51,193 nucleotides of DNA from a virus, in the IMG/VR virus record IMGVR_UViG_3300027868_000011, positions 1 through 51,193 of that record; one strand, 5' to 3'. The position numbers were made by a program, and so were the translations under genes. The notes under the pieces were generated by a model. The model ran no database searches. It worked only from the letters and a program-made list of their open reading frames with translations, and was not told where the DNA came from. Positions 1,107 to 26,811 of this stretch are shown here, piece by piece (position 1 is the stretch's first letter; each line of letters begins with the position of its first letter).

Positions 1107-2510
1107 TTGGTTGATAATGAGACTCAGGATGTCATTGAAGATATTGATTGGGAGATGTCCAAGAGGGACTTCAAGTTCTTTTTCGAGGAAATACTTGGTT
1201 GGCAGTTGGCTGACCATCATGCTAAGTGGTTTCATAATCTAAACACACACAACAGGTACTGTGTCAAAGCGGCTCGTGACCATGGGAAATCCACTTTGTT
1301 TCTAGGTTATATCCTTTGGAAGGCAGTATTTTGCCCTAGAACAGATATTATGATATTCAGCCACAGCCTAGACCAGTCAATCCGCCATATGAGAGGTCTC
1401 AATGACCTGATAGAGAGTAGCCCTATGCTGGCTAAGATGAAGGATAATGATGCTTGGTCCAAAACATTCTTCGGTTTCACTAACGGTTCTCGAATAAACG
1501 CTAAGTCAGTGGGTGGTGGTGTCCGTGGTGCTCACCCGGATATTGTCCTCCTAGACGACATATTGTGGGGTACTACAGAAACTGAATTGCAGAGAGTAGC
1601 ATCTTGGTTCTATGAGGTAATGGTACCAACAGTGCATCATACCTCTCAGTTGTGTATAGTAGGTACACCATTCACTCCTACTGACCTGTATACTGAACTT
1701 GAGGCTAGGGATAATTATCTAGTTGAAACTTACCCAGCAATTAACGAGAAGGGTGAGCCTCTTTGGCCATGGCGTTGGTCACTCGAGGCTCTTGATTCTC
1801 GAAGGATGGATATGCCAGCCATAGCCTTCACACGCGAGTATCTCTGTGAACCAATGGATGATATGTCCAGCCTATTCCCCTCTACTATTGTCAATGCCTG
1901 TAAAGACCCGTATCTCAATATCATAGATAGAAAGGACCCCGATAGTGATGACCAGTATTTTATCGGTTGGGACCCAGCCATATCTTCTGACCGGCAGGCT
2001 GACTATACTGTCATGCTAGTGTTACGAAGACCTGCAGATAACCCTGAATTACTGGAGTTAGTACATGTCGTGAGACGAAAGGGTATGGATTTCCGTACTC
2101 AGATTTTTGAGATTACCAGGCTTAACAGTAGATTCCGACCTGATGTGATAGAACTTGAGGCTAACCATTTCCAGCGAGTCTTTGCTACAGAACTAAGAGC
2201 AGATACTGACCTTCCTATCAAGACATTCATCAGTACCAAGCAAAGAAGGGAGAGCCTTTTAATGGGATTAGTTCTACGCTTTGAACGCGAGCAGATGCGT
2301 CTGCCATGGGGTGACGAGAGGTCTCGGGACCTCATCAGCCAATTGGAGCACGAACTCATCATGTTTGGAATGAGCAGAGAAGGTAAGTTGGAGAGCATTG
2401 CTCGACATGATGACTTTGCTATAGCGCTTGCTTTGGCAGTTTGGGCAACTACTGAGTTCCGTGAGAGGATAATCGACTTGGATGACTTGATGGCGGGGTT
2501 GATAGATTGA
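1107..2510 (+). CDS. terL: Terminase large subunit (packaging ATPase/nuclease)
   Basis: This is the motor ATPase and headful/cos nuclease that pumps viral DNA through the portal. The 467-residue protein has the usual length. The ATPase half shows an adapted Walker A ARDHGKS (residues 56-62), a Walker B DIVLLDD (145-151, hydrophobic strand followed by two Asp), and a coupling-like VGTPFTP segment (185-191). The nuclease half (RNase H fold) shows the first acidic site in GWDPAISSDRQADYT (Asp289), a second in VIELEANHFQ (Glu349/Glu351), and a C-terminal ARHDDFAIALALAVW with the third acidic cluster. The start is TTG, preceded by GGGTGAT three bases upstream, which overlaps the previous gene's stop. 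It overlaps the next gene by four bases (TTGA). The family assignment is firm; the packaging type (pac or cos) cannot be read from the sequence. Confidence 0.95.
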   Translation: MVDNETQDVIEDIDWEMSKRDFKFFFEEILGWQLADHHAKWFHNLNTHNRYCVKAARDHGKSTLFLGYILWKAVFCPRTDIMIFSHSLDQSIRHMRGLNDLIESSPMLAKMKDNDAWSKTFFGFTNGSRINAKSVGGGVRGAHPDIVLLDDILWGTTETELQRVASWFYEVMVPTVHHTSQLCIVGTPFTPTDLYTELEARDNYLVETYPAINEKGEPLWPWRWSLEALDSRRMDMPAIAFTREYLCEPMDDMSSLFPSTIVNACKDPYLNIIDRKDPDSDDQYFIGWDPAISSDRQADYTVMLVLRRPADNPELLELVHVVRRKGMDFRTQIFEITRLNSRFRPDVIELEANHFQRVFATELRADTDLPIKTFISTKQRRESLLMGLVLRFEREQMRLPWGDERSRDLISQLEHELIMFGMSREGKLESIARHDDFAIALALAVWATTEFRERIIDLDDLMAGLID

Positions 2511-3952
2511 CTTGGGGTAGTATGCTAATTGGTGACGATTATGATGCTGAAACTGACGAGCCTGATGCTCATAAGGCTTGGGTTATCAAGCAACTCATGC
2601 AACATCCTTTGTTCAAAACCAATCAGATAGCCGCCCCACAGTTTGGGGCTGCTCCTCCTACACCTAAAACGGGTGAGGGTAAGTTAACTCCTATTCAACC
2701 GCCAGCCGGAAATCCCAAGGAAGAGGAAGAGAAACGCAAGAAACTGATGCAACTCAGTGACGATAAAGTAGTAGATGGGTGGTTCGAGGACCAGTTTGGG
2801 AAGTCTGCTTCTGAACTCATCAAAGACCTTCGTATGAAAAGGAGAGTACACAAGCAGTTTTCCGGGGATATTGACCAATTGATAGACGCTGTAAGAAAGG
2901 CTAAGGAAGCAGAGATTGAATCTGTACTGGATAATTTACAGTGGGCTTCGGAACATTTGGATGCTATCAGGGGTTTAGGTATAACTGACCGAGATTTGAA
3001 AGCATTGAGAAAGTACGGTACAAACAGAGAGATATCACTCAAACAAGCATGTATCCAATGGGGTAATGCTAACAATGTTATCAAGAGATTATCCCAAATA
3101 GAGGGAGAGTGGGATAATGAGCAAAGGGATTTATGGGTAGAGTCTGTGAGTAAGAGAAAAGAGTCTAAGGGAATGTGGACGACTACATTGCATCAAGTGG
3201 ATAGTCTTAACAAGTCAGAGTCTGCATATTTGAATGCCGCAGTAGATATTTTAGGTCACAAGGGGTCTATGGATTCTAGAACTCTTTTGGAGAACATGTC
3301 CTATATGGATGGTAGAAATAAGTCATTCTCGGTACAGAAATTGAGCGCTTTACTCAAGACCTATGGGCTTGAATACAACATCATTAAACATCGTGATAGA
3401 TGGGAGTTACTACCAACAGACTCTTCTGATATCATCAAAGACCCTTGGGCATATGCTGCAGGGTTTCTGGATGCTGATGGTTATATCACCATATCTAAGA
3501 GAGGAGAGCCTAGAGCAGGGATAATAGCCACAGGTCAGCGAGGGAAGGCTCATTGCGAACAGATGCACGATTTACTGGGTTGTGGAGTCTTACAATTAGA
3601 CTTGAAAGTACATAAGACCAGTAAGAAGAGTCAGCACCGGTTGCAGTTCTATAGTGCTGATGACCTAAGGAGACTTCTACAAGGTACTAAACCTCATCTA
3701 AGACTCAAGAAAAAGCAAGCAGAGAGTGTTCTAGAATTATTGAATTTACGAGGTCGTAATGGTGATATGATTACCAAGCGGAGAGATGAGTTGTTCAAGA
3801 TAGTCAAGTGGGAAAACTGGCATGATGTCAAGGGTGATGAACTACTTGAAGAGTGGAATGTTGATGAACAAGAGGTCCTCTCATGGGGTAGGAGTGACCC
3901 CGAGGTCATCAGGCTTGTTGACGATATGAGTAAATTGGTAGGTGGTATCTGA
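2507..3952 (+). CDS. LAGLIDADG-domain protein between terminase and portal
   Basis: A 481-residue protein. The first ~80 residues are low-complexity (Pro/Gly/Lys/Glu). Residues ~85-200 are helical and charged. Residues ~235-302 look like a small winged-helix module (SRTLLENMSYMDG ... LLKTYGLEYNIIKHRDRWELL). Residues 315-326 (AYAAGFLDADGY) are a clear LAGLIDADG signature, followed by the usual beta-rich half (residues ~326-410, ending with a charged helix). A single LAGLIDADG unit would act as a dimer in known homing endonucleases. It starts with TTG inside the terminase stop (TTGA) and ends in a TGATG overlap with the portal gene, so it is a stable part of the operon and not a free-standing intron or intein insertion; no splice-junction residues are visible. 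It may be a packaging accessory nuclease or a domesticated DNA-binding protein. The domain call is good; the role is unknown. Confidence 0.8.
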   Translation: MTWGSMLIGDDYDAETDEPDAHKAWVIKQLMQHPLFKTNQIAAPQFGAAPPTPKTGEGKLTPIQPPAGNPKEEEEKRKKLMQLSDDKVVDGWFEDQFGKSASELIKDLRMKRRVHKQFSGDIDQLIDAVRKAKEAEIESVLDNLQWASEHLDAIRGLGITDRDLKALRKYGTNREISLKQACIQWGNANNVIKRLSQIEGEWDNEQRDLWVESVSKRKESKGMWTTTLHQVDSLNKSESAYLNAAVDILGHKGSMDSRTLLENMSYMDGRNKSFSVQKLSALLKTYGLEYNIIKHRDRWELLPTDSSDIIKDPWAYAAGFLDADGYITISKRGEPRAGIIATGQRGKAHCEQMHDLLGCGVLQLDLKVHKTSKKSQHRLQFYSADDLRRLLQGTKPHLRLKKKQAESVLELLNLRGRNGDMITKRRDELFKIVKWENWHDVKGDELLEEWNVDEQEVLSWGRSDPEVIRLVDDMSKLVGGI

Positions 3953-5928
3953 TGGCTGGTGAAGACAATAAAGGTGTGGTCAGTAGGTTCATTGATAGGA
4001 TAACCGGCAACTACCGCAGGAAGACTACACCTGAACCCATAATGCCGCTTTGGAAGGCGGGCATACAGGAGCCTGTACTAGTCCAGGGTGTGAGCATACC
4101 AGCCCTCTACGCCACAGTGCAGGAGAGCATCATACTCAGAACTACAATCAATACCCTCTGTCAGGAGATATTCAGGAGAGGTCACTATTGGAAGAAGAAG
4201 TTTCACATGAAGTGCTCTCAATGTGAGGAGGAGTATCAACATGATACTGTATCTGAGTGCAGAATGTGTGGAGGGGGTGATTTCCAGTCCCCAGACGCAG
4301 ACCAGATATTGTACCCCCGATGGTTTGTCAAACAGAGAAATGGAATGGACCAATCTTTCACTGATGTGTTGAGAGAGGTCGAATGGGACTTGGACATTGT
4401 CGATGACGGATTCATCGTCCTCATTAAGGAGTATTTCCTCGACCCCGATTCTGGTAAGATTGAGTTTTTCAGAGTTAAGGAAATGATGCGTGGTGACCCC
4501 ACTTTCATGAGGATTGTAGCAGATAAGAGAGGGACCAGAGGAGGTAGATATCTCATTTGCCCAGTTCATAGAGATAAGACCTATCCCTTTTCAAATGAAG
4601 ACAAAAAGTGTGATATCTGCAATTTAGATTTACAGGATGTTCAGTTCATCAATACTGCCGGTTCAGGAAAGACTCAGTACTATATTGAGGGAGAAATTGT
4701 TCATGTTTCAAAGTATAGCCCTTCTAAACTGTATGGTCGTAGCCCAGTAGCCACAATGTGGAGACAGGCTATGACTCTTACAGCCATGGACAATTACATG
4801 TATCTGGCTTATCAGAAGCGTAGGATTCCAAGAGGTGTCCTGTCTATCACCACTGATAATATCCAATCTACTGCAGCATTCTGGAAAGGTGCTGAGGAAA
4901 AGATGGAGCGTGACCCCAATTATATCCCCAAGGTGGGTGTGGAGTCTGCTACAGGAAGAGGTCGTGTCGAGTTTGTCAGATTCATGGACACTCTTGATGA
5001 GATGCAATATGGTGCAGTTCGTGATGAACTACGCATGCGTATAGCAGCATTCTATGGAGTCTCAAACATCTTCATGATGGACTCTGGTAAGGGTGGGGGT
5101 CTCAACAACGAAGGTCTGCAAATTCTAGTGACCAACAGGGCTGTAGAGTTTGGACAGAAATTATACTCTCGTGATATCTTCCCAAGGCTCTTTTCTGAGA
5201 TGGGTATCACAGATTGGGAGATGACATTATATCCGAATGAGGAGGAGGATGAAGTCACTCGACTCAGAAGGGATGAACAGGAAGTCAATATCGCTCAGAG
5301 GATGGCTCAACTCGGATTCCAACCTGAACTTACTGAGGATGCAGGTAGAGATATCAGATTTGTCTACAAGAAACCAGACCCGCAGGAAGTGGCTGCTCAA
5401 CAACAAGCAGCAATGCAGCAAGGTGGAGGTGGAGAGGCGCCCCCACCAGACGCAGGAGGAGGCGGTCCACCACCTGGTATGATGCCACCTCAAGGTGGTG
5501 GTGCTATGCCTCCTGGTGGTGCTATGCCTCCACCACAGATGCACCCAGCAGCAGGTGCAGGTCCAATGGTAGTTCCACCAGCAGGTGGGCCTCCGGCAGG
5601 TGGACCTCCAGCAGGTGCTCCTATGCCCCCTCGAGGAGGAGCGCAGCATACATTCCATCCAGGTGATGCTCGTAGAATGCCCATGATGACTAGGAAAAGC
5701 CTGGGAGCAGGTTCAGATTCTGAAAGTCAAGGCTTGAGACATGGTAAAGTGCCAGGGGTGAAAAACATAAGTGCTCCATCTGGAACCCCATCTGGTGCTA
5801 CAACCACTAATCAACGAGGGTCCAAGAAGACATCAATGGAGGAGGCTTTAGATGCAATACAGGATGCTAAGGAGTCTGCGGCTAACCCTCAGGGAGACAA
5901 GAAGAAGAAAGGTGGACTCCCACGATAG
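3952..5928 (+). CDS. Portal protein with two zinc ribbons and Gly/Pro-rich tail
   Basis: The dodecameric portal forms the DNA channel at the capsid vertex and docks terminase and connectors. The 658-residue protein shows typical portal features: an N-terminal helical clip region (ALYATVQESIILRTTINTL, residues 51-69), an ISxY-like segment HVSKYSPSKLYGRSPV (251-266), a following long helix, and an FYGVSNIF motif (367-374). Two putative zinc ribbons are inserted. The first has Cys88, Cys91, Cys103 and Cys106; the second has Cys203, His206, Cys220 and Cys223. The C-terminal ~180 residues are Gly/Pro/Gln-rich, with GGPPAG-type repeats (residues ~475-570), and probably disordered. The ATG overlaps the preceding TGA. 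The portal call rests on position (after terminase, before protease and capsid) plus these motifs. The ribbons are unusual for portals and may bind DNA or stabilise the ring. Confidence 0.88.
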   Translation: MAGEDNKGVVSRFIDRITGNYRRKTTPEPIMPLWKAGIQEPVLVQGVSIPALYATVQESIILRTTINTLCQEIFRRGHYWKKKFHMKCSQCEEEYQHDTVSECRMCGGGDFQSPDADQILYPRWFVKQRNGMDQSFTDVLREVEWDLDIVDDGFIVLIKEYFLDPDSGKIEFFRVKEMMRGDPTFMRIVADKRGTRGGRYLICPVHRDKTYPFSNEDKKCDICNLDLQDVQFINTAGSGKTQYYIEGEIVHVSKYSPSKLYGRSPVATMWRQAMTLTAMDNYMYLAYQKRRIPRGVLSITTDNIQSTAAFWKGAEEKMERDPNYIPKVGVESATGRGRVEFVRFMDTLDEMQYGAVRDELRMRIAAFYGVSNIFMMDSGKGGGLNNEGLQILVTNRAVEFGQKLYSRDIFPRLFSEMGITDWEMTLYPNEEEDEVTRLRRDEQEVNIAQRMAQLGFQPELTEDAGRDIRFVYKKPDPQEVAAQQQAAMQQGGGGEAPPPDAGGGGPPPGMMPPQGGGAMPPGGAMPPPQMHPAAGAGPMVVPPAGGPPAGGPPAGAPMPPRGGAQHTFHPGDARRMPMMTRKSLGAGSDSESQGLRHGKVPGVKNISAPSGTPSGATTTNQRGSKKTSMEEALDAIQDAKESAANPQGDKKKKGGLPR

Positions 5929-7414: not shown

Positions 7415-10400
7415 GTGCGTGAAGGCCCTGAGGACTTTCTCCTAAGTAGCAAAGCACGCTATCAAAACTCCCAAGACGAAGAAGACGCTGCAGAACTTTT
7501 CTTCGCTATACGGAATATGCTCAATCATGGGCTAGATGTCATCTGGGATGACACTATCACTAAGGCAATGGAAGACCTTGAAAAGCCTGGTGAGACTAGT
7601 AAGCGCTCTATGGAAGCGGCTGTTACAAGGACTAAAACTAAGCCCGAGGCTAAACCTCTACCAAAGGTGGAGCCTAGAACAACAGAAGAAACTAAGCCTT
7701 TACCTCCTACACCATTAGAAATTCAGGGCCCTATTCGGTATGTTGACCGATATAGAATAGCCCCTTGGTTGTTCAATCAACAGAAAAGGACTCTACCTGG
7801 AGGTGTCACCGAAGATGGTACTCCTGAAAAAGGGCAGGACATAGCGTTTATGGAAAGCCTCATGATAGGTGGTAGAGAGGCTACTAAACCTGATAGTCCT
7901 GTCATCCCCAGTAGGTATTTCGATATCCAATCTCATATGTACTACATTGACAATTATGGGAATAGAGTCAATTTCACAATGAAGGATTTAGACCCTAGCA
8001 TTTGGCTTGAAGGGCCTGAAGGTTGGGGTGGTGATGAAAAGAGTGTGAAAGAATGGGAAGAAGACCCTTTGAAATGGCTGAGAGACCATGCAGATGAGAA
8101 TGTACCAACGCAGTCCGGGGGTAATAAGGGTATCAAGTTTAGAGATTACTTGCGCCCATTAATTGGCCGACCTGAGTATACTGGTGAAAGAAGATTCGAG
8201 CATGGTGATAACACTACTGATTTTAGGAGTAAGAAGGGGAGAGAACTAATTCCTCATAAATCACTTAATTCATTAGACCCTATACAAGCACTGCATTTCT
8301 TTAGTGATTCACCAGTTCTTGAGAATTCGGCTAGCAAATTCCATTCAGAGTTTCTTAACCCGGATAGTCCTCATCATGTGCGTTCAGTAGAAGCAGCCGT
8401 CAAGAAGAAGAATGACTCTTTGAAAGAGATGATGGGAGTTAATTGGGGGCAAAAAGGGCATGAAACTCATCACCAAGATAGAAGGGCGATTAACAGTCAG
8501 GGAGAGATAGCCGGCGATGATGTATCCCCGTCCTATACCTTTACTAGGATGTATGAGGATTACTATAGTGATTGGCTTAGAAGGAATGGTTCTAGATTGA
8601 GAAAGGATATGAGTGACAAAGACAAGAGGATATTATTCTCACATTGGTATGATTTGGAATATGATATAGGACAAGGTCATGATGATTATATCGCTCAGAG
8701 ACTTCTTCGTACCGATAAGAGAATGAGGAAACGCTACAAGCGTGCCGATGTGACGCTTGACCCAGAATTCCAACATAGAAGAGATGACGAATCTAGTCAT
8801 CATCGTGTTGGTCTCATTCCTCAACTCTTAGGTTTGCAATTGGCTAGTCCTGAACATCGGATGTACGCTATTGCAGACCTGTTCTCTTACCTCAAACAGC
8901 ATGAGGAAGGTGGCCATCATCCGATAGATGACCCTATTGAGGATAGAAAACAGGATGCTGCAGATAATGCTGGTGGGTTGAGGGTCGACGAATTGATTGA
9001 CCATATGTATTCGGCTCTAGGTAAGAACATGACGGCTATCGCCAATAATGTAATGGGTCACCCATTAGACCCTGAAGGGACTCATATACCACCGTACTTT
9101 GACAAGCACTCACGAGTTAAACAATCAATAATCAGAGAGGGTTTGGAACTAGCGCATTTGTCACCACTGTCTCCTGATTTCAAGAAGAAGAGAGGTAATA
9201 AGTCTGGTTATGATACTCCAGAAGGTGGTAGAACTAGTCAGAAGAGTATGGCTCAAATCATGAAAGTCCTTGATTTGCTTGATGAAGTAGGAGTACCAAA
9301 GGGGTGGAATATCGACAATCCTGACATCATGGAGGAATTTGATAGAGTAGTTCTTCCTTATCTTGATAACAAATTCAAGAATAGTGCTCGAGATAGATTC
9401 GAGAGTTGGTTTCACACAGACCCTAAAGCCAAGTTGAGAGGGAGGGCTAGAGAATATCAATCAGCCATGGCTCATGATAATTGGTCTTTGGAAGCGAGAG
9501 TAGAAGGCGAGACATCGAAACCACATGAGATTACTGAGAATCATGACATGAGTCCTTCTTGGTTATGGCACCACAGTTTACCAAAGACTGGGTATAATTT
9601 GTATGGGCCTGATATTGCTGAGATTCTCTATGGGGTTATCCCTTGTCTTGGTGAGAAGGTGAAAAATAGTGAGAAGATACTTTTCGATTCGATGGGCACT
9701 CGCCCTCCTCATTTTGACAAAGAGAAGAGTAATGAGCATCCTGATAATTATGACTATGCAGAGTGGCTAAAGGGGATTGGTAATGGTCCAGCACCAGAGA
9801 CTTGGGATAATGACCCTAGTATACCATTCACAGAAAAAGGTGGTATGTCAGGTTTAGCCATGGAGATTGATGCCTATCTAAGAGGTGGTGAGTTGGGACC
9901 AATAATGGGAGAAGTCTACAAGAGATTCTACGGTGATTTACCCCTTAATCCTCACAAGGGTGATTTCGTAAGTAGACTCTTGAAAGGGCGCCTTGGGGAG
10001 GTTTATGGTGAACATGAAGAGGCTACAATGGCAGAAGACTCACCAGAGCGAGCCAGACAAATAGGTATGACAGAAATGAAAGATGTCACTGGTGAGAGTG
10101 CAGTTGGTGAGCGTTCTAGTGGGTATGGGGTTAGAGTGGCTGGACCTTCTGAAGTGACAAGGAGAAAGGAGGCTGACATAGCAGGGGCTCCAGATACACT
10201 GCCGAAATCTATCGTAGAAAATTACCCCCTAGGTAGGCGACCTCTCAATGAGAGGATACTTAGGATGATGCTTCCTATTGCTGGTGCTAAAGATACTTTC
10301 TTCTTGAGAGAGGCATTACAAATGGGGCTTAGAGAGCCAGCGTTACAATTGCTAGAAGCGTTACGAAAGAAATGGGGCGGGGCTGCTGTACCGAAAAATG

Positions 10401-13400
10401 AAATGGAAGACCGCTTACTTACTATGGATGAGGCTGTTGATAGAAGGACAGATGAACTAGGGCAGATGGTTGACAGGGCGACTATTCTAAGAGGTTCATC
10501 AGGAGGCATAGTTTTCCCTTATCATAATCGTGGCCTTATAATGCCTGCAGATACTCTGAGGATGATAGAACTAGGGCAGATGTATCCTGGCTTGGTCAAC
10601 CAGAGTAACCATGACGGCTATAGGGATGAGGGGGCCAGTAGAGGTTCTGCAATTCTAGACCAACTTGGTCGTAGTGGAGTTACAGAGAACAGAGGGCTGA
10701 CTGCTGCTATGTTGGGATTACTTTGCTCAGCATTGATGGGTGGTGGCTCTGCTGAACCTTGGTCATTTGAACATAGAGGGAATGAGAAGGCTTTGGTTGT
10801 AGACCACCCTGGACAATGGGGAGATGAATTCATGGGAAATTTGGCTAATTGGATTCGTAAGCAGCCACATCCACACATTGAGGGAGAGGAAATTGGAAAC
10901 CAATTAGGTGGTTGGGAGAATGAAGATTGGCGTCATCGTGTGGCTGACAAGAGATTCATCTACCCTGTCAATAAGCACATGAATGATGAGGGCATAGAGG
11001 AATATAGATTACCTTTCAAGAAGACCGGTGGTAAGCATGGTCTGCAATTCAAGGTTCCTGATTTAGATGTATGCAGTCCTTATCCCGAGAAAGCATTAGG
11101 AGATGGATTGAGTTTTTCGCACCCATTCAGTATACAAAACCAATTGCAGGATATAGTCGGCTCCAGAGGTATCTATCCTTCTTGGACTACACCTAGAGAT
11201 GGAGAACAGCATATCCAATCCATGCCTAAGCCGTGGATGGTGATTCCCAAAGAGAGTATCATAAATTACAATGGGCAAGACTATGTTGTTGCTGAACACC
11301 CTTCTGTAATCAAGGACGAGTTTAGTAACTATCTATCTGATTATGATAAGAGTCAAGGTAACAAACAACATAAGGACCTGATACTAGGACTTCGGAGAGA
11401 GGCTAAAAATATGGCTCCCAAGATGGAGGGGGGATGGGAGAAGAGTGAGAAGCAACGAGGATGGATGATGACCATGGAAATGTTGACTAGGGCTGTGGGG
11501 ACAGGTCACCAAGCGGCTAAGGCCGTTTTACCTTTCATAATGGCCCACCTTGCTTCTAATCATACCCCTGATATAGAACAAGGAAATCAAAGTGAGTCTC
11601 AATGGAAGTTGGATGATTTCACGGAGAAGTATCTAAGGCAGCACAAAGGAGATACTTCTGAGGAGGCTCAAAGGAAATATGCTACATTATGCCACTTGTA
11701 CGAATTGGCTTGGAATTATGCAGACCGTCATGGCCCTGTTAAAAGAGGCTTATTCCTTGAGCAATTAGAGAAGCAAGGTCATAACTTCACTGATGAGCAG
11801 AAGGAAGGATTCCTAAGTCCTGATTTGAATGTGAACAGTGTGCAAGGTCATAAGGAATTCGTCATGCCCAAACATGGGATGGACACAAACCATCCTTTCT
11901 ATGAGGCCTTCCACGAAGGTATAGGGCAGAATGTAGAAGGATTGAACCTTCTGCGTGCTTTTACCAACAAACGATATGGAGATGATGAACGATATGAAGG
12001 ATTGATGGATGCAATTGAAGATATCATGAATCAACATTTCTCTTGGGGTTCTGAATCGGTTGGTCAACCTGGCTTGGCTCCAGAGGACTGGAAAACGAAA
12101 AGCGGTCAACCTATGTCCTTCAAATTAAAGAAATTATTCGAGACTTCACAACAGGACCATGACAAAGCCATGTATCAAGCAGACCATTATGAGAAAGGTC
12201 TGGATGGAGGTGATGACCCTCTTTGGTATATTCCAGAGTCTGACGCTCCATTTTCAGATGAGCATCCTGAGCATAGGACGAAGAATGTGGAGAGGGCTAA
12301 AAGGGGTAGTAGGGCTCAGATGTCCTTGAATACAAAAAGCATCTTGAATACTGTAGGTGATGAGCACGATTCAGATTATAGTATAGAGGACCATAGAACA
12401 CTCAATCAATTCATAGTTGCTATGGGGCCTGTGATTAAGGATTTGGTAAGTGAACTAGATAAGGTTAATTATCTGCCAGAACACGCTTCACACCAACGAT
12501 TTGATGAGAATGACCCCCAAGATGTAATGAGAGAATATTGTAGACTTTTGTTCCTTCGGGGTCGTATCAATCCCAAGTATCAACCTAGGCCTTGGTCATA
12601 TCGCTCTTCTGGTATGAAACAGATAGGTGATGATAGCGAGCCTGGTGTGATAAATCTTAATAGAACACGACTCTCGAATCTATCTAGTGTCCATGCACAT
12701 GATTCATTCCACCAGTCAGAAGTTATGCCTTTCACTATGGATGTCGAGAATCATATACCTGACCTTCATAGTAGAGGGTCTCCTACTCCCCCTTGGGATA
12801 TTGGTGTAGGTGGTGAGTACCAGAACAATTCTCAAGACCCTACAAGAGACCAACGCTTGGGCCATGAGGAGATGCAAGAGGGAAAGAGAGATACAGCCAT
12901 TGCTACTCCCTATAGGACTGTCCACTCTAATATTCTTAATTCAGCATTCGGTCAGAGACTTGCTATTACTGGGGATAACTCTAACATTGGAGCGTCACTC
13001 CAGTATACGGAGGATGATGAGGTGAGGTATTCGTTGGATGTTTTGACTGATGTAGACTTGCTCCTGAAAGAGGAAGAAAGGGATAAGGGTAAACCTGCTC
13101 CTGTTAAAGCCATGCATCGTATCTTTGACCTTGATGATTTAGAGTATCTCAGAGGGTTTTCTGATGATTGGGTAGTTACTTCATGGCCTGCTGGTACAAG
13201 AGTTATTGTAGAGAAGAAAGGTAAGAAGGTTAAAGCCCGAGATGCAGAAGGTAAATCTGTTACTCTACCCAATGAAATTAAGACCGGTGTTAAAGATGCT
13301 CATGACAAGGATTTCTTAATAGATGCCATTTGGGATGAAGACAGATTATGTATTGTGGATATCTTGGAATGTGAAGATGATGATTTGTGTAATAAGCCCA

Positions 13401-14602
13401 CCAAAGATAGAGTCAGGCATCTAAGGGCTCACTTTGAGTCTACTGAGAAGGTTAGTACTCCAGCACCAGTAAATACGAAGAGAGTTGATGGGCAGGGTCT
13501 CAAGAGAGCAGTCAAGGACCTCATGAAGGAACCTGATGTAAAGCAGGTCCTATTGAGAGATGCTGAGTCCACTTACATGCGTGGAGAAATGAGGCACCCA
13601 AAATGGGTATTACTTACGCCAGACCATCAAATTGATGTTTTAATTCTATCTTCCTCTGGGGTTGATAACCATCTGATTGGAGTTGGGCCATTGTATGAAC
13701 AGGATGCTAAGGCAATTGGTAACAGGGCGGTTCGTTATGATGGGGATTATTACATGGATGTAGGTACAGTCTCGCGTTCAGGTTTGGAAGAGGGGATGTA
13801 CATAACTGTGAAGACATCAGGTATTTCTCATTCGGCTAGAAGGAATTATTCAGTTTACCGATTAAATGCACCTCGTTATCTGAGAGAATCTGAGAGTGGA
13901 GCGACTGACAGTGTAGAGACTTTGGAGATACTGCGTCACAGGCAGGAAGGTAATGTACCTCACAAGGTTCGGATTAAGAAAGGGAGAATCCACATAGATG
14001 TACCTACAGGACATGTAGTCTATGAAACAGAAGTGTCTGGGAATGCATTTCTTTTGAAAGATGTAGATTCCCCAGATGATTATACTCTAAGAGTGACTCA
14101 AAGCCAAATGGAATATTGGTCACCGCTGGCTGCAGTTCTTTTGCGTTCTGAAAGAGAGGGAGAGAAGGAAGAGATAGAGCCAGAGCCTGCGGCTAATCAT
14201 GATAAGAAGCCAAAGAAGGTGCTACCGAAAAGAGATGAGTTGCTCAAAGACCCTGAAGTCGTCAAGACTGTAGTTCTAGCATTAGAGACAGTAGATGGTA
14301 TGCTCAAAGAGAAGGTTACTTGGACTGGTCCTAAGGCTCTAGGTATTGATTATGGTACTCCCATAGAATCACCTCATGGGCCTACTGATATAACTGAACC
14401 ATATGATATGCCTGACCATGACCCTGCTGCTAGACAGTCTGAACCTAAGGCATGTTGGTGTGGTGCTGAAAAGGGAGAAGAATGTAAACAAGGCATGGGT
14501 CACGATATGGAAGATTGCCCCAAGGCTAGACCACCAGATAGTGATGAAAAGCCAGAACATCTCACCGTTTCTCAGGATTCTCGCGATGTTTCTTCCGTGT
14601 GA
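7415..14602 (+). CDS. Giant head-region protein with C-terminal DNA-ligase-like pseudoenzyme module
   Basis: A 2395-residue protein starting at GTG after a GGTGGTGGTGAT stretch. The first ~1900 residues are hydrophilic, His/Trp/Asp/Glu-rich and match no family I recognise; no signal peptide or membrane segment is seen. Residues ~1915-2075 follow the order of the ATP-dependent DNA ligase adenylation domain: SWPAGTR (1923-1929, at the K-x-D-G-x-R site), LIDAIWD (1968-1974, at the D-G-E site), VDILECEDDDLCNKP (1981-1995, matching the conserved FDLLYLDGEDLxxxP stretch), KQVLLRDAESTY (2043-2054, at the EGVVLKDxxSPY site) and KWVLL (2063-2067, at the W-x-K site). Residues ~2085-2158 fit the ligase OB fold. 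The nucleotidylated Lys, the DG/DGE acids and the motif IV/V lysines are all replaced, so catalysis is not expected. The last 50 residues hold a CWCG...C...C cluster. Position between portal and protease suggests a virion or injected protein. Confidence 0.8.
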   Translation: MREGPEDFLLSSKARYQNSQDEEDAAELFFAIRNMLNHGLDVIWDDTITKAMEDLEKPGETSKRSMEAAVTRTKTKPEAKPLPKVEPRTTEETKPLPPTPLEIQGPIRYVDRYRIAPWLFNQQKRTLPGGVTEDGTPEKGQDIAFMESLMIGGREATKPDSPVIPSRYFDIQSHMYYIDNYGNRVNFTMKDLDPSIWLEGPEGWGGDEKSVKEWEEDPLKWLRDHADENVPTQSGGNKGIKFRDYLRPLIGRPEYTGERRFEHGDNTTDFRSKKGRELIPHKSLNSLDPIQALHFFSDSPVLENSASKFHSEFLNPDSPHHVRSVEAAVKKKNDSLKEMMGVNWGQKGHETHHQDRRAINSQGEIAGDDVSPSYTFTRMYEDYYSDWLRRNGSRLRKDMSDKDKRILFSHWYDLEYDIGQGHDDYIAQRLLRTDKRMRKRYKRADVTLDPEFQHRRDDESSHHRVGLIPQLLGLQLASPEHRMYAIADLFSYLKQHEEGGHHPIDDPIEDRKQDAADNAGGLRVDELIDHMYSALGKNMTAIANNVMGHPLDPEGTHIPPYFDKHSRVKQSIIREGLELAHLSPLSPDFKKKRGNKSGYDTPEGGRTSQKSMAQIMKVLDLLDEVGVPKGWNIDNPDIMEEFDRVVLPYLDNKFKNSARDRFESWFHTDPKAKLRGRAREYQSAMAHDNWSLEARVEGETSKPHEITENHDMSPSWLWHHSLPKTGYNLYGPDIAEILYGVIPCLGEKVKNSEKILFDSMGTRPPHFDKEKSNEHPDNYDYAEWLKGIGNGPAPETWDNDPSIPFTEKGGMSGLAMEIDAYLRGGELGPIMGEVYKRFYGDLPLNPHKGDFVSRLLKGRLGEVYGEHEEATMAEDSPERARQIGMTEMKDVTGESAVGERSSGYGVRVAGPSEVTRRKEADIAGAPDTLPKSIVENYPLGRRPLNERILRMMLPIAGAKDTFFLREALQMGLREPALQLLEALRKKWGGAAVPKNEMEDRLLTMDEAVDRRTDELGQMVDRATILRGSSGGIVFPYHNRGLIMPADTLRMIELGQMYPGLVNQSNHDGYRDEGASRGSAILDQLGRSGVTENRGLTAAMLGLLCSALMGGGSAEPWSFEHRGNEKALVVDHPGQWGDEFMGNLANWIRKQPHPHIEGEEIGNQLGGWENEDWRHRVADKRFIYPVNKHMNDEGIEEYRLPFKKTGGKHGLQFKVPDLDVCSPYPEKALGDGLSFSHPFSIQNQLQDIVGSRGIYPSWTTPRDGEQHIQSMPKPWMVIPKESIINYNGQDYVVAEHPSVIKDEFSNYLSDYDKSQGNKQHKDLILGLRREAKNMAPKMEGGWEKSEKQRGWMMTMEMLTRAVGTGHQAAKAVLPFIMAHLASNHTPDIEQGNQSESQWKLDDFTEKYLRQHKGDTSEEAQRKYATLCHLYELAWNYADRHGPVKRGLFLEQLEKQGHNFTDEQKEGFLSPDLNVNSVQGHKEFVMPKHGMDTNHPFYEAFHEGIGQNVEGLNLLRAFTNKRYGDDERYEGLMDAIEDIMNQHFSWGSESVGQPGLAPEDWKTKSGQPMSFKLKKLFETSQQDHDKAMYQADHYEKGLDGGDDPLWYIPESDAPFSDEHPEHRTKNVERAKRGSRAQMSLNTKSILNTVGDEHDSDYSIEDHRTLNQFIVAMGPVIKDLVSELDKVNYLPEHASHQRFDENDPQDVMREYCRLLFLRGRINPKYQPRPWSYRSSGMKQIGDDSEPGVINLNRTRLSNLSSVHAHDSFHQSEVMPFTMDVENHIPDLHSRGSPTPPWDIGVGGEYQNNSQDPTRDQRLGHEEMQEGKRDTAIATPYRTVHSNILNSAFGQRLAITGDNSNIGASLQYTEDDEVRYSLDVLTDVDLLLKEEERDKGKPAPVKAMHRIFDLDDLEYLRGFSDDWVVTSWPAGTRVIVEKKGKKVKARDAEGKSVTLPNEIKTGVKDAHDKDFLIDAIWDEDRLCIVDILECEDDDLCNKPTKDRVRHLRAHFESTEKVSTPAPVNTKRVDGQGLKRAVKDLMKEPDVKQVLLRDAESTYMRGEMRHPKWVLLTPDHQIDVLILSSSGVDNHLIGVGPLYEQDAKAIGNRAVRYDGDYYMDVGTVSRSGLEEGMYITVKTSGISHSARRNYSVYRLNAPRYLRESESGATDSVETLEILRHRQEGNVPHKVRIKKGRIHIDVPTGHVVYETEVSGNAFLLKDVDSPDDYTLRVTQSQMEYWSPLAAVLLRSEREGEKEEIEPEPAANHDKKPKKVLPKRDELLKDPEVVKTVVLALETVDGMLKEKVTWTGPKALGIDYGTPIESPHGPTDITEPYDMPDHDPAARQSEPKACWCGAEKGEECKQGMGHDMEDCPKARPPDSDEKPEHLTVSQDSRDVSSV

Positions 14603-14634: not shown

Positions 14635-16023
14635 ATGCTGATGATGGAAGCACCGCTAGACAGCCCTATTCTCATCAAAGGTAGGACTGGAGACCTAGTT
14701 GTTGCCGGCTATGCTTCAGTTGAAATGGTCGATAAACAAGGGGACCTGATAACTAAGGGCGCACTACGAGAAGCATTCAAGAAATTCATGGGTTCTCCAG
14801 GCTTTAGGAATGTGCAACTGGCTCATTCAAATATCCAAGTTGGTTCTGTCATTCCTGAGTATTCGGATAGTAGTGGGCGTGTCTGGAAGTCTGAAGTAGA
14901 CGATACTGGTATGTTCGTAGTTATCCAACTCCGTGATGATATCGAAAAGGCTCGTGAGGTAGCCGCAGAAATCCGAAAGGGTAACCTCAAATCATTTTCA
15001 ATAGGTGGGCAGGCTTTCGAGCGTGTCAACAAGAGTAACTCCGAGAGAGGAGATTACCGAGAAATACGCAGGATGGAACTGCATGAAGTTACCATCTGCG
15101 AGAAGGGCATCAATCCAGAGGCCCAATTCCGAATCCTGAAAGAGGATAAAATTGAAATAAATAAAGGTGAAAATATGACAGATGCAATGACAGAACTACA
15201 GGATGTCTTGGAAAGGTTATCCAAGAGGCTAGACGATGTTGACGAGGCTGAGTCTGCCCTGAAGGGCAAAGACGATGCTGAGAAAGGCAAAGACGATGCT
15301 GAAAAGGAAGACAAAGAAAAGGCTGATGTAGCAAAGGACAATGAAGACAAAGAATCTTCTGAGAAGTCTGAGAAAACGGAAAAGATGGACGATGTGATTA
15401 CCACAGAGTATCTTGACTGGCTAGAATCGACTGTGAAGTCTGCTGGGTATGACCCATCGGCTGCTCGCGGTCACTTTGATAACACAGAGGGAGTCGAAAA
15501 GGCTTACCTCCAAGAGGGTGCTCATGGTTACGACCATCGTGGACAGGGTAGTATCGAAGGCGCTGGTGAGGATGACTCCGGTAAGCGACCCAAGATGAAT
15601 ATGGGTGCAGGACCGAGTGGTAACAAAACCGTCATCAAGACAGATGAGTTCATCCATCCGGAAATGGTTTCCTCTGCACAAGTAGAGGAAGCATATCAGG
15701 TCTACAAGGCCGCTGCTCTTGAGCAGCAGTTCAAGTCTGACCTAGGCAACAACTTCTCAATAAGATTACAAAAAGAAATACAGAATAGTCAGAATGAGAC
15801 CGAGAGGTCATCATTCGATGCGCGTGGGCCTCTACAAGACCTACAGAAAGCAGTTCTCGCTCTAAGCGGTAGGATTGAGGATGTTTCCACCACACCTGGT
15901 GAAGATTTCCAGAAATCTGCAGATGCTTCGAGAGTAACTATTCCTGAGACAACCGAGATGGCTGCCTTGTCGTGGGACGATGTCCACCGACTAGCACACT
16001 CGGCTCTAAGGGGTGATAACTGA
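14635..16023 (+). CDS. Prohead protease fused to scaffold
   Basis: The 462-residue protein joins an HK97/XkdF-like S78-type prohead protease to a scaffolding domain. Protease domain (residues ~15-170): GYASVEMVDKQGDLI (25-39), catalytic His in QLAHSN (His64), catalytic Ser in KSFSIGG (Ser122), and the strand LHEVTICEKGINPEA (149-163), which parallels the LHEVSLxxxPANPEA of HK97-type proteases. After a Lys/Glu/Asp-rich coiled region with a GKDDAEK duplication (211-224) comes the scaffold portion, ending at the capsid gene. The protease would cut scaffold and itself during capsid maturation. No strong ribosome site precedes the ATG; ATGs at 14641 and 14644 are alternatives. It ends in a TGATG overlap with the capsid gene. 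A separate internal start is described at 15175. Confidence 0.9.
   Translation: MLMMEAPLDSPILIKGRTGDLVVAGYASVEMVDKQGDLITKGALREAFKKFMGSPGFRNVQLAHSNIQVGSVIPEYSDSSGRVWKSEVDDTGMFVVIQLRDDIEKAREVAAEIRKGNLKSFSIGGQAFERVNKSNSERGDYREIRRMELHEVTICEKGINPEAQFRILKEDKIEINKGENMTDAMTELQDVLERLSKRLDDVDEAESALKGKDDAEKGKDDAEKEDKEKADVAKDNEDKESSEKSEKTEKMDDVITTEYLDWLESTVKSAGYDPSAARGHFDNTEGVEKAYLQEGAHGYDHRGQGSIEGAGEDDSGKRPKMNMGAGPSGNKTVIKTDEFIHPEMVSSAQVEEAYQVYKAAALEQQFKSDLGNNFSIRLQKEIQNSQNETERSSFDARGPLQDLQKAVLALSGRIEDVSTTPGEDFQKSADASRVTIPETTEMAALSWDDVHRLAHSALRGDN
15163..15177 (+). promoter_or_regulatory. Internal ribosome binding site for free scaffold
   Basis: Inside the protease-scaffold gene the sequence AAAGGTGA is followed by four bases and an in-frame ATG at 15175. 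This is a better ribosome site than the one in front of the full gene, and it lies exactly at the boundary between the protease domain and the charged scaffold domain. It decides the start of the nested product. Confidence 0.7.
15175..16023 (+). CDS. Nested scaffold protein (internal in-frame start)
   Basis: Translation from Met181 of the protease-scaffold frame gives a 282-residue protein that lacks the protease domain. It begins with a helical segment (MTDAMTELQDVLERLSKRLD), continues with an acidic/basic coiled region, and has a C-terminal part with helices likely to contact capsid protein (QVEEAYQVYKAAALEQQF; LQKAVLALSGRIEDV). Phage lambda uses the same design, where Nu3 scaffold is made from an internal start in the C protease gene. 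Here the evidence is the strong AGGTGA site four bases before the ATG and its position at the domain border. A mix of protease-scaffold and free scaffold would allow many scaffold copies per protease. Confidence 0.65.
   Translation: MTDAMTELQDVLERLSKRLDDVDEAESALKGKDDAEKGKDDAEKEDKEKADVAKDNEDKESSEKSEKTEKMDDVITTEYLDWLESTVKSAGYDPSAARGHFDNTEGVEKAYLQEGAHGYDHRGQGSIEGAGEDDSGKRPKMNMGAGPSGNKTVIKTDEFIHPEMVSSAQVEEAYQVYKAAALEQQFKSDLGNNFSIRLQKEIQNSQNETERSSFDARGPLQDLQKAVLALSGRIEDVSTTPGEDFQKSADASRVTIPETTEMAALSWDDVHRLAHSALRGDN
15265..15306 (+). repeat. Two 21-bp tandem units in scaffold coding sequence
   Basis: Two adjacent 21-base units (15265-15285 and 15286-15306) encode GKDDAEK twice and differ at two bases near the end of the unit. 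They lie in the charged coiled linker of the scaffold. This is probably a recent in-frame duplication that lengthens the flexible linker. Confidence 0.8.
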
Positions 16024-17168
16024 TGGCGCGTAATTATGTAAGGACAATACAGGACATGGAGCGATACTACTACGGTGGTACCGCATTGACCGGGTACACC
16101 TACAGCAGTGGAGATATACTCAAGGCGGATGCACCGCTTCTGAGCACCACGGCTGGTACCTACCAGGCAATCTATGGCAGGAAGGTTTGGTCGCAGTTGA
16201 ATCAAGAGTTCAACGCGTTCAGCATCCTACCAAAGAAGCCGTGGGAGCGAAGTGGATGGCGCATCATAACTGCCAAGCCTTCGTTCGATGTTGGTGGAGG
16301 TCTGGCTGAGAACGCCACACTGCCCGACACCACGAAGCCTGACTTCCTGCATGTGGCTGCAAAGCCCAAGACCATTGGCCACTCGTTCGACCTGAGCGAA
16401 GTGTCCATGTTCCTTTCCGATAAGGATGATGGTCTCGGAGATGTGCGCCAAGTGCTCAAGGAAGAGATGGGGAAGCACCACGCTGACCACATCAACAGGA
16501 TGCTATTGGTAGATGTCGAGACCCCAGCGGGTAACGACTTCGAGTCACTGGACCGACTAACCTCGGACCCAGACTCGATGACAACTGGTACAGGCCATGT
16601 GAGTGCTACTACAGACCACGACCTATACTCTATCACACGCGATGGGAGTTCCGACTTCCACAGTGCTGAGGTAGATGTGTCGGCTGCGGCTAACACTAAC
16701 AGGAACCTAAGCCTGAATCAACTGGACGGATTGTTCCAGCAGATTTGGGTTCGAGGTGGTAACCCCAAGGTCATGCTGACTGGGTACGATACCCTGATGC
16801 GTGTGCAACAACTACTGCAGAGCCAGCAGAGATTCATGGAATCGAAGAGGGTCACCCCCACCTACAACGGTGTGAAGGGTGTGCCTGGTATCGAGGCCGG
16901 ATTCATTGTGGCTACCTACAACGGCGTGCCGCTGATTCCGTCCAAGGATGTAGTAACTGACACGAGTGGAATCTCGAGGATTTACTACTTTGATACGGAC
17001 TACTTGTGGTTCCAGACTGCTATACCGACCCAATATTTCGAGTCGGGTATCGAAACCGGCGACCCGTTCGCCATCAACAGACTAGGCCAAGAGGGGCTCT
17101 ACCGAACCATGGGTGAGGTATGGGACTCTTTCTTCGGCGCAGGAGGTTCTATCCGTGACCTTAAGTGA
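16023..17168 (+). CDS. Major capsid protein (HK97 fold expected)
   Basis: The 381-residue protein forms the capsid shell. It follows the protease-scaffold gene directly (TGATG overlap with GGGGTGAT as ribosome site), the classical order for HK97-type viruses. Seen features are an N-terminal arm (residues ~1-45), a central segment resembling the E-loop and spine region (LKEEMGKHHADHINRMLLVD, a long spine-like helix around residues 141-160), and an A-domain-like region with a QLDGLFQQIWVRGGNPKVML stretch and NGVPLIPSKDV, both common in HK97-fold capsids. The end, GEVWDSFFGAGGSIRDL, also fits this class. Codon use differs from the flanks, with more C/G in third positions, consistent with selection for very high expression. 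The assignment rests on order, size and these motifs. Confidence 0.85.
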   Translation: MARNYVRTIQDMERYYYGGTALTGYTYSSGDILKADAPLLSTTAGTYQAIYGRKVWSQLNQEFNAFSILPKKPWERSGWRIITAKPSFDVGGGLAENATLPDTTKPDFLHVAAKPKTIGHSFDLSEVSMFLSDKDDGLGDVRQVLKEEMGKHHADHINRMLLVDVETPAGNDFESLDRLTSDPDSMTTGTGHVSATTDHDLYSITRDGSSDFHSAEVDVSAAANTNRNLSLNQLDGLFQQIWVRGGNPKVMLTGYDTLMRVQQLLQSQQRFMESKRVTPTYNGVKGVPGIEAGFIVATYNGVPLIPSKDVVTDTSGISRIYYFDTDYLWFQTAIPTQYFESGIETGDPFAINRLGQEGLYRTMGEVWDSFFGAGGSIRDLK

Positions 17169-24989: not shown

Positions 24990-25264
24990 ATGACAATCTA
25001 AATTTCCTAAGGGGGAGGAAAGAGGACCCGACATTAGGTCTTGAGTCCTCGATTTATTTTGTCATGAAACACTATGGGCTCAGCCTCAGAGACATCGACG
25101 ATTTGAGTGCCGAAGAATTCGGCATGATGTTCACTTGGGCTGCGGCAGCCTCTGCTCACGAGGCAGAGCAAATGGAGAAGCAGACCGGAGAATCCAAGTC
25201 CTCGATGGGAGTAGCGGGTACCAATATGGGTGGGCCTATGCCACATAGTGAGGGGAGGTGGTAG
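24603..25264 (+). CDS. Tail assembly chaperone, -1 frameshift form (GT-like)
   Basis: The frame-shifted product joins bases 24603-24968 to 24968-25264. After slipping one base back at C-CCT-TTG, the ribosome reads into the -1 frame, which is open from 24920 to the stop at 25262-25264. The fusion has about 220 residues: 122 of the G part followed by 98 of the T part. The T part continues GGWADRIDDNLNFLRGRK, then MKHYGLSLRDIDDLSAEEFG and an Ala-rich helix ending in a Gly/Pro tail. In lambda-like phages the T domain recruits tube subunits to the tape measure. The only ATG in the T frame (25064) lacks a good ribosome site, so frameshifting is the better explanation. Not experimentally shown. Confidence 0.72.
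24962..24968 (+). promoter_or_regulatory. Putative -1 ribosomal slippery heptamer CCCTTTG
   Basis: In the G reading frame the bases read C CCT TTG, an exact X-XXY-YYZ heptamer, 18 bases before the G stop codon and inside the region where the -1 frame is open. GC-rich segments just downstream could form a stimulating structure, but I have not computed one. Confidence 0.7.
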
Positions 25265-25266
25265 AT

Positions 25267-26811
25267 ATGACAGATGTTCTTAGCAATGAAGCATTGCAAT
25301 TGAAGGTACTGGCGCTGGAAGATGTCGCTAAACAGTTCCAAGCCACTGGTGGTAAGGCTCACAATTATGGCGTACAGATGGGTGTAGTTGAAAAGGCTCA
25401 ACAGAAACTAGTCAACATATGGCAAGGTAGTGTCATTGGTAAAGCACAAGTAGTAGGCAAGTGGTTCGGTAATCTGTCTAAGGTCGTAACAAAGTATTCA
25501 AATGATTCTAAGGATATGGAAGATGCCAATAAGAACCTTACAATTGCACAACGACATCTCATAGCACCTTTACTCAAAGGTACAGGCGCTGCCAAAATGG
25601 GGCAGAAGATGTGGGAGAAGTATAGGCATACTATCGTCGATGCTAATGGTGATATCAGTCAAGGAAGGAAAATGCTCCTAATGTTTGGTGCTAGTCTAAT
25701 GACTTTACTTGGACTCCTAGGGATAATAGGTTTCGCCTTCGCTGCATTCTCATTAGCCACAGAAGGTGCAGCCTCCCCCATCGCGCAATTTGTTGCTGAA
25801 CACTTCCCTCAATTTTCAGCAGGTCTACAGAAAATAATTGATTTGTTACAAGGGGATATGGTAGGCTCTATTCAATCTTATTTGTTACCAGCCTTTATTC
25901 TTTTCAAAGTAGCCTTGATGTTATTACCAGGTCTTTTCGGACCACTCTTTGTGGCTGTTGTCTTAGGTGTGGCACTCTTCAAGAGATTTCGAGCACAAGG
26001 AGATAGTTTCGGAACGGCCCTTATCAAGACTATCGGTGGAGTTGTTGCAGCATTCTTCATTCTAATGAGTCCAGGTAAGATATTGAAACTGATTTGGCTC
26101 ATCGTTAAACTTGCCGTCAGAACTTTAGGATGGGGTGGGAGTCTAATAATTGCAGGTATTGCTGGGCTTTTCCTTGCTGCTTCTGGTAAATTGTCAGGGT
26201 TTTGGTCAGTAGTAATTGGAATAATGAGTGCTGCAGCACTCTATGTTGGTATGCTCTTAGTTTCAGCAGCGTTGGGTACCACCTCGACAATAGGGGCTCT
26301 ATTTGCAGCAATTCCATTCTTCTGGGTAGCAGCATTGCTTTTGATGGTAGCCATGATTTACAGGTTCCGCGAACCACTCTGGGCCGCTTTCAAGGCTATA
26401 GGTAAGGGAATCGCTAACATCTTTATTTGGGTGGCCAATTTGATTATAGACATTCTATTGACACCTTTCAATTTCATTCTTGCCATGCTTTCCATGGCTA
26501 TACCGGGACTGAACTTTAGTCCTCTTGGGGCAGGAGATACAATACCAATGTTGGCTGATGGTGGTCCTGTTAGAGCAGGGCGCTCTTACATTGTAGGAGA
26601 GCGTGGTCCTGAGTTGTTCACCGCTGGGTCTTCTGGCCGTATCACACCTAACCATGAGATGGGAGGGGGTACCTCCAATATCACTATGAACATAGATGTT
26701 GGTGGGGTGACTGACCAAACTGATAAGCGAGCACTGGCTCGTCAGATTGGTGATGCTCTCAACCAAGAACTGAGGAGACTAGGTGGGAATCCAACAAGGG
26801 GTAGATACTGA
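25267..26811 (+). CDS. Tape measure protein
   Basis: A 514-residue protein that sets tail length. I choose the ATG at 25267 (GGGGAGGTGG upstream) over the GTG at 25258, which lies inside the previous gene. Residues 1-135 are amphipathic and helical. Residues ~135-415 contain several hydrophobic helices (MTLLGLLGIIGFAFAAF, GPLFVAVVLGVALF, WVAALLLMVAMIY among them). The C-terminal part holds GGPVRAGRSYIVGERGPELF (residues 432-451), a very typical end motif of tape measure proteins, followed by an amphipathic helix (ALARQIGDALNQELRRLG). At about 0.15 nm per residue it predicts a tail near 77 nm. It directly follows the chaperones, as expected, and ends in a TGATG overlap with the next gene. Confidence 0.9.
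   Translation: MTDVLSNEALQLKVLALEDVAKQFQATGGKAHNYGVQMGVVEKAQQKLVNIWQGSVIGKAQVVGKWFGNLSKVVTKYSNDSKDMEDANKNLTIAQRHLIAPLLKGTGAAKMGQKMWEKYRHTIVDANGDISQGRKMLLMFGASLMTLLGLLGIIGFAFAAFSLATEGAASPIAQFVAEHFPQFSAGLQKIIDLLQGDMVGSIQSYLLPAFILFKVALMLLPGLFGPLFVAVVLGVALFKRFRAQGDSFGTALIKTIGGVVAAFFILMSPGKILKLIWLIVKLAVRTLGWGGSLIIAGIAGLFLAASGKLSGFWSVVIGIMSAAALYVGMLLVSAALGTTSTIGALFAAIPFFWVAALLLMVAMIYRFREPLWAAFKAIGKGIANIFIWVANLIIDILLTPFNFILAMLSMAIPGLNFSPLGAGDTIPMLADGGPVRAGRSYIVGERGPELFTAGSSGRITPNHEMGGGTSNITMNIDVGGVTDQTDKRALARQIGDALNQELRRLGGNPTRGRY

Follow-up and report, generated by a model that had tools for sequence, protein, structure and literature searches.

The head gene region and its giant gene

The window analyzed here is the complete 51,193-nucleotide stretch of viral DNA deposited as IMG/VR record IMGVR_UViG_3300027868_000011. 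One of its genes encodes a protein of 2395 residues and is flanked by genes of capsid assembly. Homologues of this giant gene were found by sequence searches at more than 150 loci, including a 99.96% identical copy within a 118-kb contig, and they are treated below as a giant clade, with the protein of the window, and a compact clade of shorter proteins. The main features of the region are:

3952..5928, + strand: portal protein (PF04860, E 3.7e-6; phrog_18178, E 9e-70)
7415..14602, + strand: gene of the 2395-residue giant protein, with a GTG start
7415..7579, + strand: conserved N-terminal segment of the giant protein, residues 1-55 (blastp against giant-clade relatives)
14635..16023, + strand: S78-type prohead protease, directly downstream of the giant gene (PF04586, E 2.1e-10)
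16023..17168, + strand: HK97-type major capsid protein (MCP) (phrog_24667, E 1.3e-55; druskavirus MCPs, E 1e-54)

The giant gene sits within the head gene cluster in the relatives as well. Among loci with enough flanking sequence, a portal gene lies upstream in 45 of 45 and an S78 protease gene downstream in 147 of 147; some contigs contribute more than one locus to these counts, which are therefore not all independent. This position among head genes suggests that the giant protein is part of the virion. Judged by the sequences of its MCP and portal, the virus falls near the Druskaviridae and other archaeal tailed viruses. We infer a group A magrovirus on the strength of the 118-kb contig and of published work.

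Further genes of the window and its neighbors deserve mention. The gene at 2507-3952, between terminase and portal, gives HNH and LAGLIDADG-like matches, and an HNH gene occupies the same place in the druskavirus HVTV-1. The C-terminus of the HVTV-1 'zeta toxin' (L091:10623-14564) looks ADP-ribosyltransferase-like by eye. A gene at 25258-26811 gives tape-measure-like matches, and two genes downstream of its start lies a 5100-residue open reading frame (27954-43256).

A DNA ligase fold in the C-terminal part

A DNA-ligase-like module had been placed at residues ~1915-2158 by the first-pass annotation. The location was right and the extent proved slightly wider (~1896-2174), comprising two domains:

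13100..13630, + strand: DNA-ligase nucleotidyltransferase (NTase) domain, residues 1896-2072, catalytically dead as judged from its motifs (profile, AlphaFold2 and Foldseek, relatives)
13631..13936, + strand: OB-fold domain, residues 2073-2174 (AlphaFold2 model, Foldseek)

The single sequence of the window gave only weak Pfam matches, to SPN1_m3Gcap_bd (E 0.045) and DNA_ligase_A_M (E 0.14), both at the right place in the protein and both to families that we take to share the nucleotidyltransferase fold. Among 49 relatives, DNA_ligase_A_M was matched by 42 (best E 1.3e-8) and SPN1_m3Gcap_bd (PF21974) by 24 (best E 6.3e-6), the scores of the latter staying under the curated cut-off in every protein among the scores listed. 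The curated ligase cut-off of 26.2 bits was passed in four related genomes when same-frame pieces were summed in a genome search; for two of these four, the whole proteins score under that cut-off in hmmscan.

Profiles built from the relatives gave clearer results. With a profile from five relatives, an archaeal DNA ligase was the sole PDB match up to E 10; with the 49-member profile, the archaeal DNA ligase 4eq5 was matched at E 7.5e-5 and 23 of 24 matches were DNA ligases. T7 ligase alone, compared with the module by profile, aligned collinearly but weakly.

Predicted structures of both clades were compared with the PDB by Foldseek, and DNA ligases came first in each case. For the C-terminal 531 residues of the window's protein, the AlphaFold2 model (mean pLDDT 61, about 75-90 through most NTase and OB strands) had ATP-dependent DNA ligases as its first 50 matches (best E 7.7e-13, probability 1.00). 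The TM-scores did not exceed 0.37 of the query, a modest value that may reflect uncertain orientation of the domains together with a disordered tail. A 1169-residue compact-clade protein, modeled from an alignment without giant-clade rows (mean pLDDT 73), again matched DNA ligases first (best E 4.2e-8), with a TM-score of 0.63 of the target at 3.8 A for 10ye_L. The ligase NTase and OB folds are thus present in the window's protein by the 49-member profile and by Foldseek on the predicted structure, which bears out the ligase-like order and spacing noticed at first pass. The module is homologous to ATP-dependent DNA ligases beyond chance, and it shares the NTase plus OB layout and the motif order and spacing with archaeal ligases (4eq5, 3rr5, 2cfm) and human LIG1. 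The second Pfam family of the module, the m3G-cap-binding domain of snurportin-1, is a non-catalytic binding domain with a nucleotidyltransferase fold; Foldseek favors DNA ligases instead.

The closest structural match of the module was BFVD A0A516LT18, an 827-residue viral protein (E 5.9e-23, 21% identity) and possibly a relative in a named database. No match was obtained when a phage collection was searched with the giant protein and the compact-clade module, nor when cellular genome contigs were searched with the module of the window. A 43-residue match of the compact-clade profile to a Rhizobium protein on the cellular contigs does not look like a ligase and was treated as chance.

Loss of the catalytic residues

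Catalytic positions were tabulated over 111 distinct modules, motifs I and III being scorable in 108. The residues that the first-pass annotation had quoted for the window are all found at the catalytic positions:

13184..13201, + strand: motif I remnant WPAGTR, Trp1924 at the catalytic Lys of KxDGxR (HMMER alignment to 4eq5)
13322..13330, + strand: motif III remnant, Asp-Ala-Ile replacing Asp-Gly-Glu (tabulation of modules)
13541..13561, + strand: motif IV remnant KQVLLRD, Lys2043 for Glu and Arg2048 for Lys (tabulation of modules)
13601..13618, + strand: motif V remnant KWVLLT, KxK lost and Trp kept, Leu2066 at the first Lys (tabulation of modules)

The motif I position is Trp in 20 of 20 rows of the window-clade alignment; the rest of the giant clade has Trp, Phe, Ile, Met or Ser there. 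Loss of the lysine holds throughout the giant clade and fails in the compact clade, where all 36 of the 108 scorable modules with a motif I Lys are found, alongside Met and Val. The motif III Glu occurs in none of the 108. In motif IV, Lys is absent from all 111 modules while Arg and Asp are invariant, and in motif V the first Lys is kept once in 111 and the Trp always. Compared with ATP-dependent DNA ligases, the Gly-x-Arg after motif I, the motif IIIa Asp, the Asp after motif IV and the motif V Trp have been kept, whereas the motif I Lys has become Trp in the protein of the window, and the Glu of motif III and the lysines of motifs IV and V are gone. On these residues, the module is catalytically dead as a ligase.

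Published work appears to treat the gene differently. It is probably the one annotated as an ATP-dependent DNA ligase (PMC12999244; PMC10768690; PMC7318539), and the ICTV profiles of Apasviridae and Aoguangviridae name such a ligase among the replication proteins. For the group A magrovirus contig_156409, PMC7318539 describes a read that covers both an 'ATP-dependent DNA ligase' and a prohead protease; the annotated gene lies on a genome of ~118 kb and, like that of the window, adjoins the prohead protease, and neither a dead site nor a giant size is mentioned in the accessible text. This shared adjacency makes it very probable that the magrovirus 'ligase' gene is the giant gene of the window. 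The gene itself is therefore not new, and published gene lists appear to count a dead module as a working ligase. These annotations, together with the motif I Lys of the compact clade, could point to an active nucleotidyltransferase or ligase with altered motifs. Such an enzyme is very unlikely, as the motif III Glu and motif IV Lys are missing everywhere, the motif V Lys is missing in 110 of 111 modules and Trp stands for the motif I Lys in the clade of the window. Residual chemistry in the compact clade, where many members have that Lys, is formally conceivable from the sequences.

Twenty related records of 53-118 kb, which may be fragments, yielded no intact ATP- or NAD-dependent ligase. 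For PF01068, PF04679 and PF01653 in these 20 records, and for PF09414 and PF04675 in 10 records, no match elsewhere than in the giant gene passed the cut-off. The N-terminal ligase DNA-binding domain (PF04675) was not detected in ten relatives; its absence, and the embedding of the module in a 2395-residue protein encoded among head genes, set it apart from ATP-dependent DNA ligases.

A second protein of ~460-525 residues occurs in some related records (L098:1471-2859, - strand; L095:476-1855, - strand; L097:1102-2679, + strand; L099:1486-2907, - strand), in L098 and L097 near a clamp-loader-like gene. Its profile aligns collinearly with that of the module, though weakly (hhalign E 4.6e-4, probability 33), and a search of the PDB gave no ligase. 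It may be another degenerate ligase, lacking KxDG.

Domain layout in the two clades

Downstream of the OB fold, three further elements could be delineated:

13955..14146, + strand: third small beta/helix domain (matched by compact-clade profile positions ~848-953)
14330..14386, + strand: conserved tail motif PKALGIDYGTPIESPHGPT (alignments of relatives)
14453..14518, + strand: possible zinc-ribbon-like CxCG...C...C segment (sequence), conserved in the alignment of relatives wherever the region is present

The dead NTase domain is also seen in the model of the compact-clade protein, and the third domain is common to both clades (AlphaFold2 pLDDT mostly 72-82). The OB fold is absent from the compact clade, in which the profile runs from the NTase directly into the third domain. 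The conserved unit common to both clades is therefore the NTase domain, the third domain and the tail motif.

This layout bears on the role first proposed for the module, that of a DNA-gripping clamp. A pseudo-ligase could wrap DNA and hold the packaged end near the portal or guide ejection: ligase cores bind duplex DNA, NTase and OB are both kept in the clade of the window, and the giant gene follows a few genes after the portal. That role was not borne out, as the compact clade has lost the clamp-closing OB and still conserves the NTase, and we consider a clamp unlikely. A conserved unit without OB fits a docking surface better, though one that may still bind DNA. The net charge of the module (about neutral) was dropped as an argument against DNA binding, since T7 ligase is acidic too (net -13) and charge is uninformative here.

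Selection on the module and the divergent middle

In the giant clade, the N-terminal ~55 and C-terminal ~530 residues are conserved and most of the middle has diverged past recognition by blastp. Residues 1-55 share 36-64% identity with giant-clade relatives, and most of the ~1700 residues that follow could not be aligned in the same relatives. The module with the C-terminus is the best conserved large part of the giant protein.

Ten close pairs were scorable for dN/dS in both parts. The ratios, which are rough as some synonymous distances are near saturation, were 0.03-0.09 for the module with the C-terminus and 0.09-0.22 for the rest in nine pairs; the tenth (L061/L062) was reversed, with 0.19 against 0.14. 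Values mostly of 0.03-0.09 argue strongly that the module is under purifying selection and is not decaying. A functionless relic, which the lost catalytic residues might by themselves suggest, would leave unexplained why selection on this part is stronger than on the rest in nine of ten pairs, and it is the least probable reading of all. The module has a ligase fold that has lost its catalytic residues and is yet maintained by selection, and in this it resembles a viral structural pseudo-ligase of the A20 kind.

The fast evolution of the middle is also what might be expected if the giant protein were an effector, loaded into the head as packaged cargo and delivered to the host, with the pseudo-ligase as packaging or host-target domain. 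HVTV-1 and HCTV-1, druskaviruses related by MCP and portal, have a zeta-toxin-annotated protein of ~1200-1300 residues encoded at the equivalent position, with a head-assembly or MuF-like gene on one side and the prohead protease gene on the other. In ten full-length giant proteins, however, Pfam recognized no enzymatic or effector domain in the middle, and no ligase module was found in the druskavirus neighbor proteins, unlike the protein of the window. Delivery as cargo seems unlikely.

A probable pseudo-ligase encoded among head genes

A module that has lost its catalytic residues and is yet so closely guarded by evolution probably has a binding role rather than an enzymatic one. In the reading we favor with some confidence, the NTase and OB core of an ATP-dependent DNA ligase would have lost its adenylation chemistry and become a pseudo-enzyme, built into a large, putatively head-associated protein of magrovirus-like tailed viruses. 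The module would serve as a non-catalytic docking or architectural domain for a fixed partner, for instance the portal, the capsid, another head protein or the packaged DNA, and the fast-evolving middle of 1100-1800 residues may do lineage-specific work. Virion presence, the binding of a partner and its identity are conjectural parts of this reading.

A precedent for an inactive ligase domain as a structural element is provided by poxvirus A20, the middle domain of which is an inactive DNA ligase, with catalytic subdomain and OB fold, in a larger viral protein (PMC11142717). The likeness is one of kind. Unlike A20, which belongs to the DNA polymerase holoenzyme, the module is encoded between portal and prohead protease. 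The first-pass annotation knew of no described example in this setting. The gene appears to have been annotated as a ligase before and viral inactive ligases were known, so that what stands of this claim is the dead state and the head-gene setting, for which no published report was found. The dead module encoded between portal and prohead protease has proved to be a conserved family and not a local oddity, and its setting among head genes is an addition to the known viral pseudo-ligases.

Magroviruses are reported to be abundant and widely distributed in surface seawater (PMC10160649), and the case that they rely little on the replication machinery of the host has drawn on their gene lists (PMC10768690). 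If the listed ligase is the dead module, that case has one enzyme fewer to rest on, and the viruses would need the ligase of the host or an unrecognized one. Tentatively, and with somewhat less than even confidence, a ligase core may have been recruited, stripped of its chemistry and permanently incorporated into the machinery of the head or of DNA ejection in an abundant group of marine archaeal viruses, the 'ligase' credited to their replication being that structural part. The module is in any case a conserved domain open to tests in virion assembly or DNA ejection.
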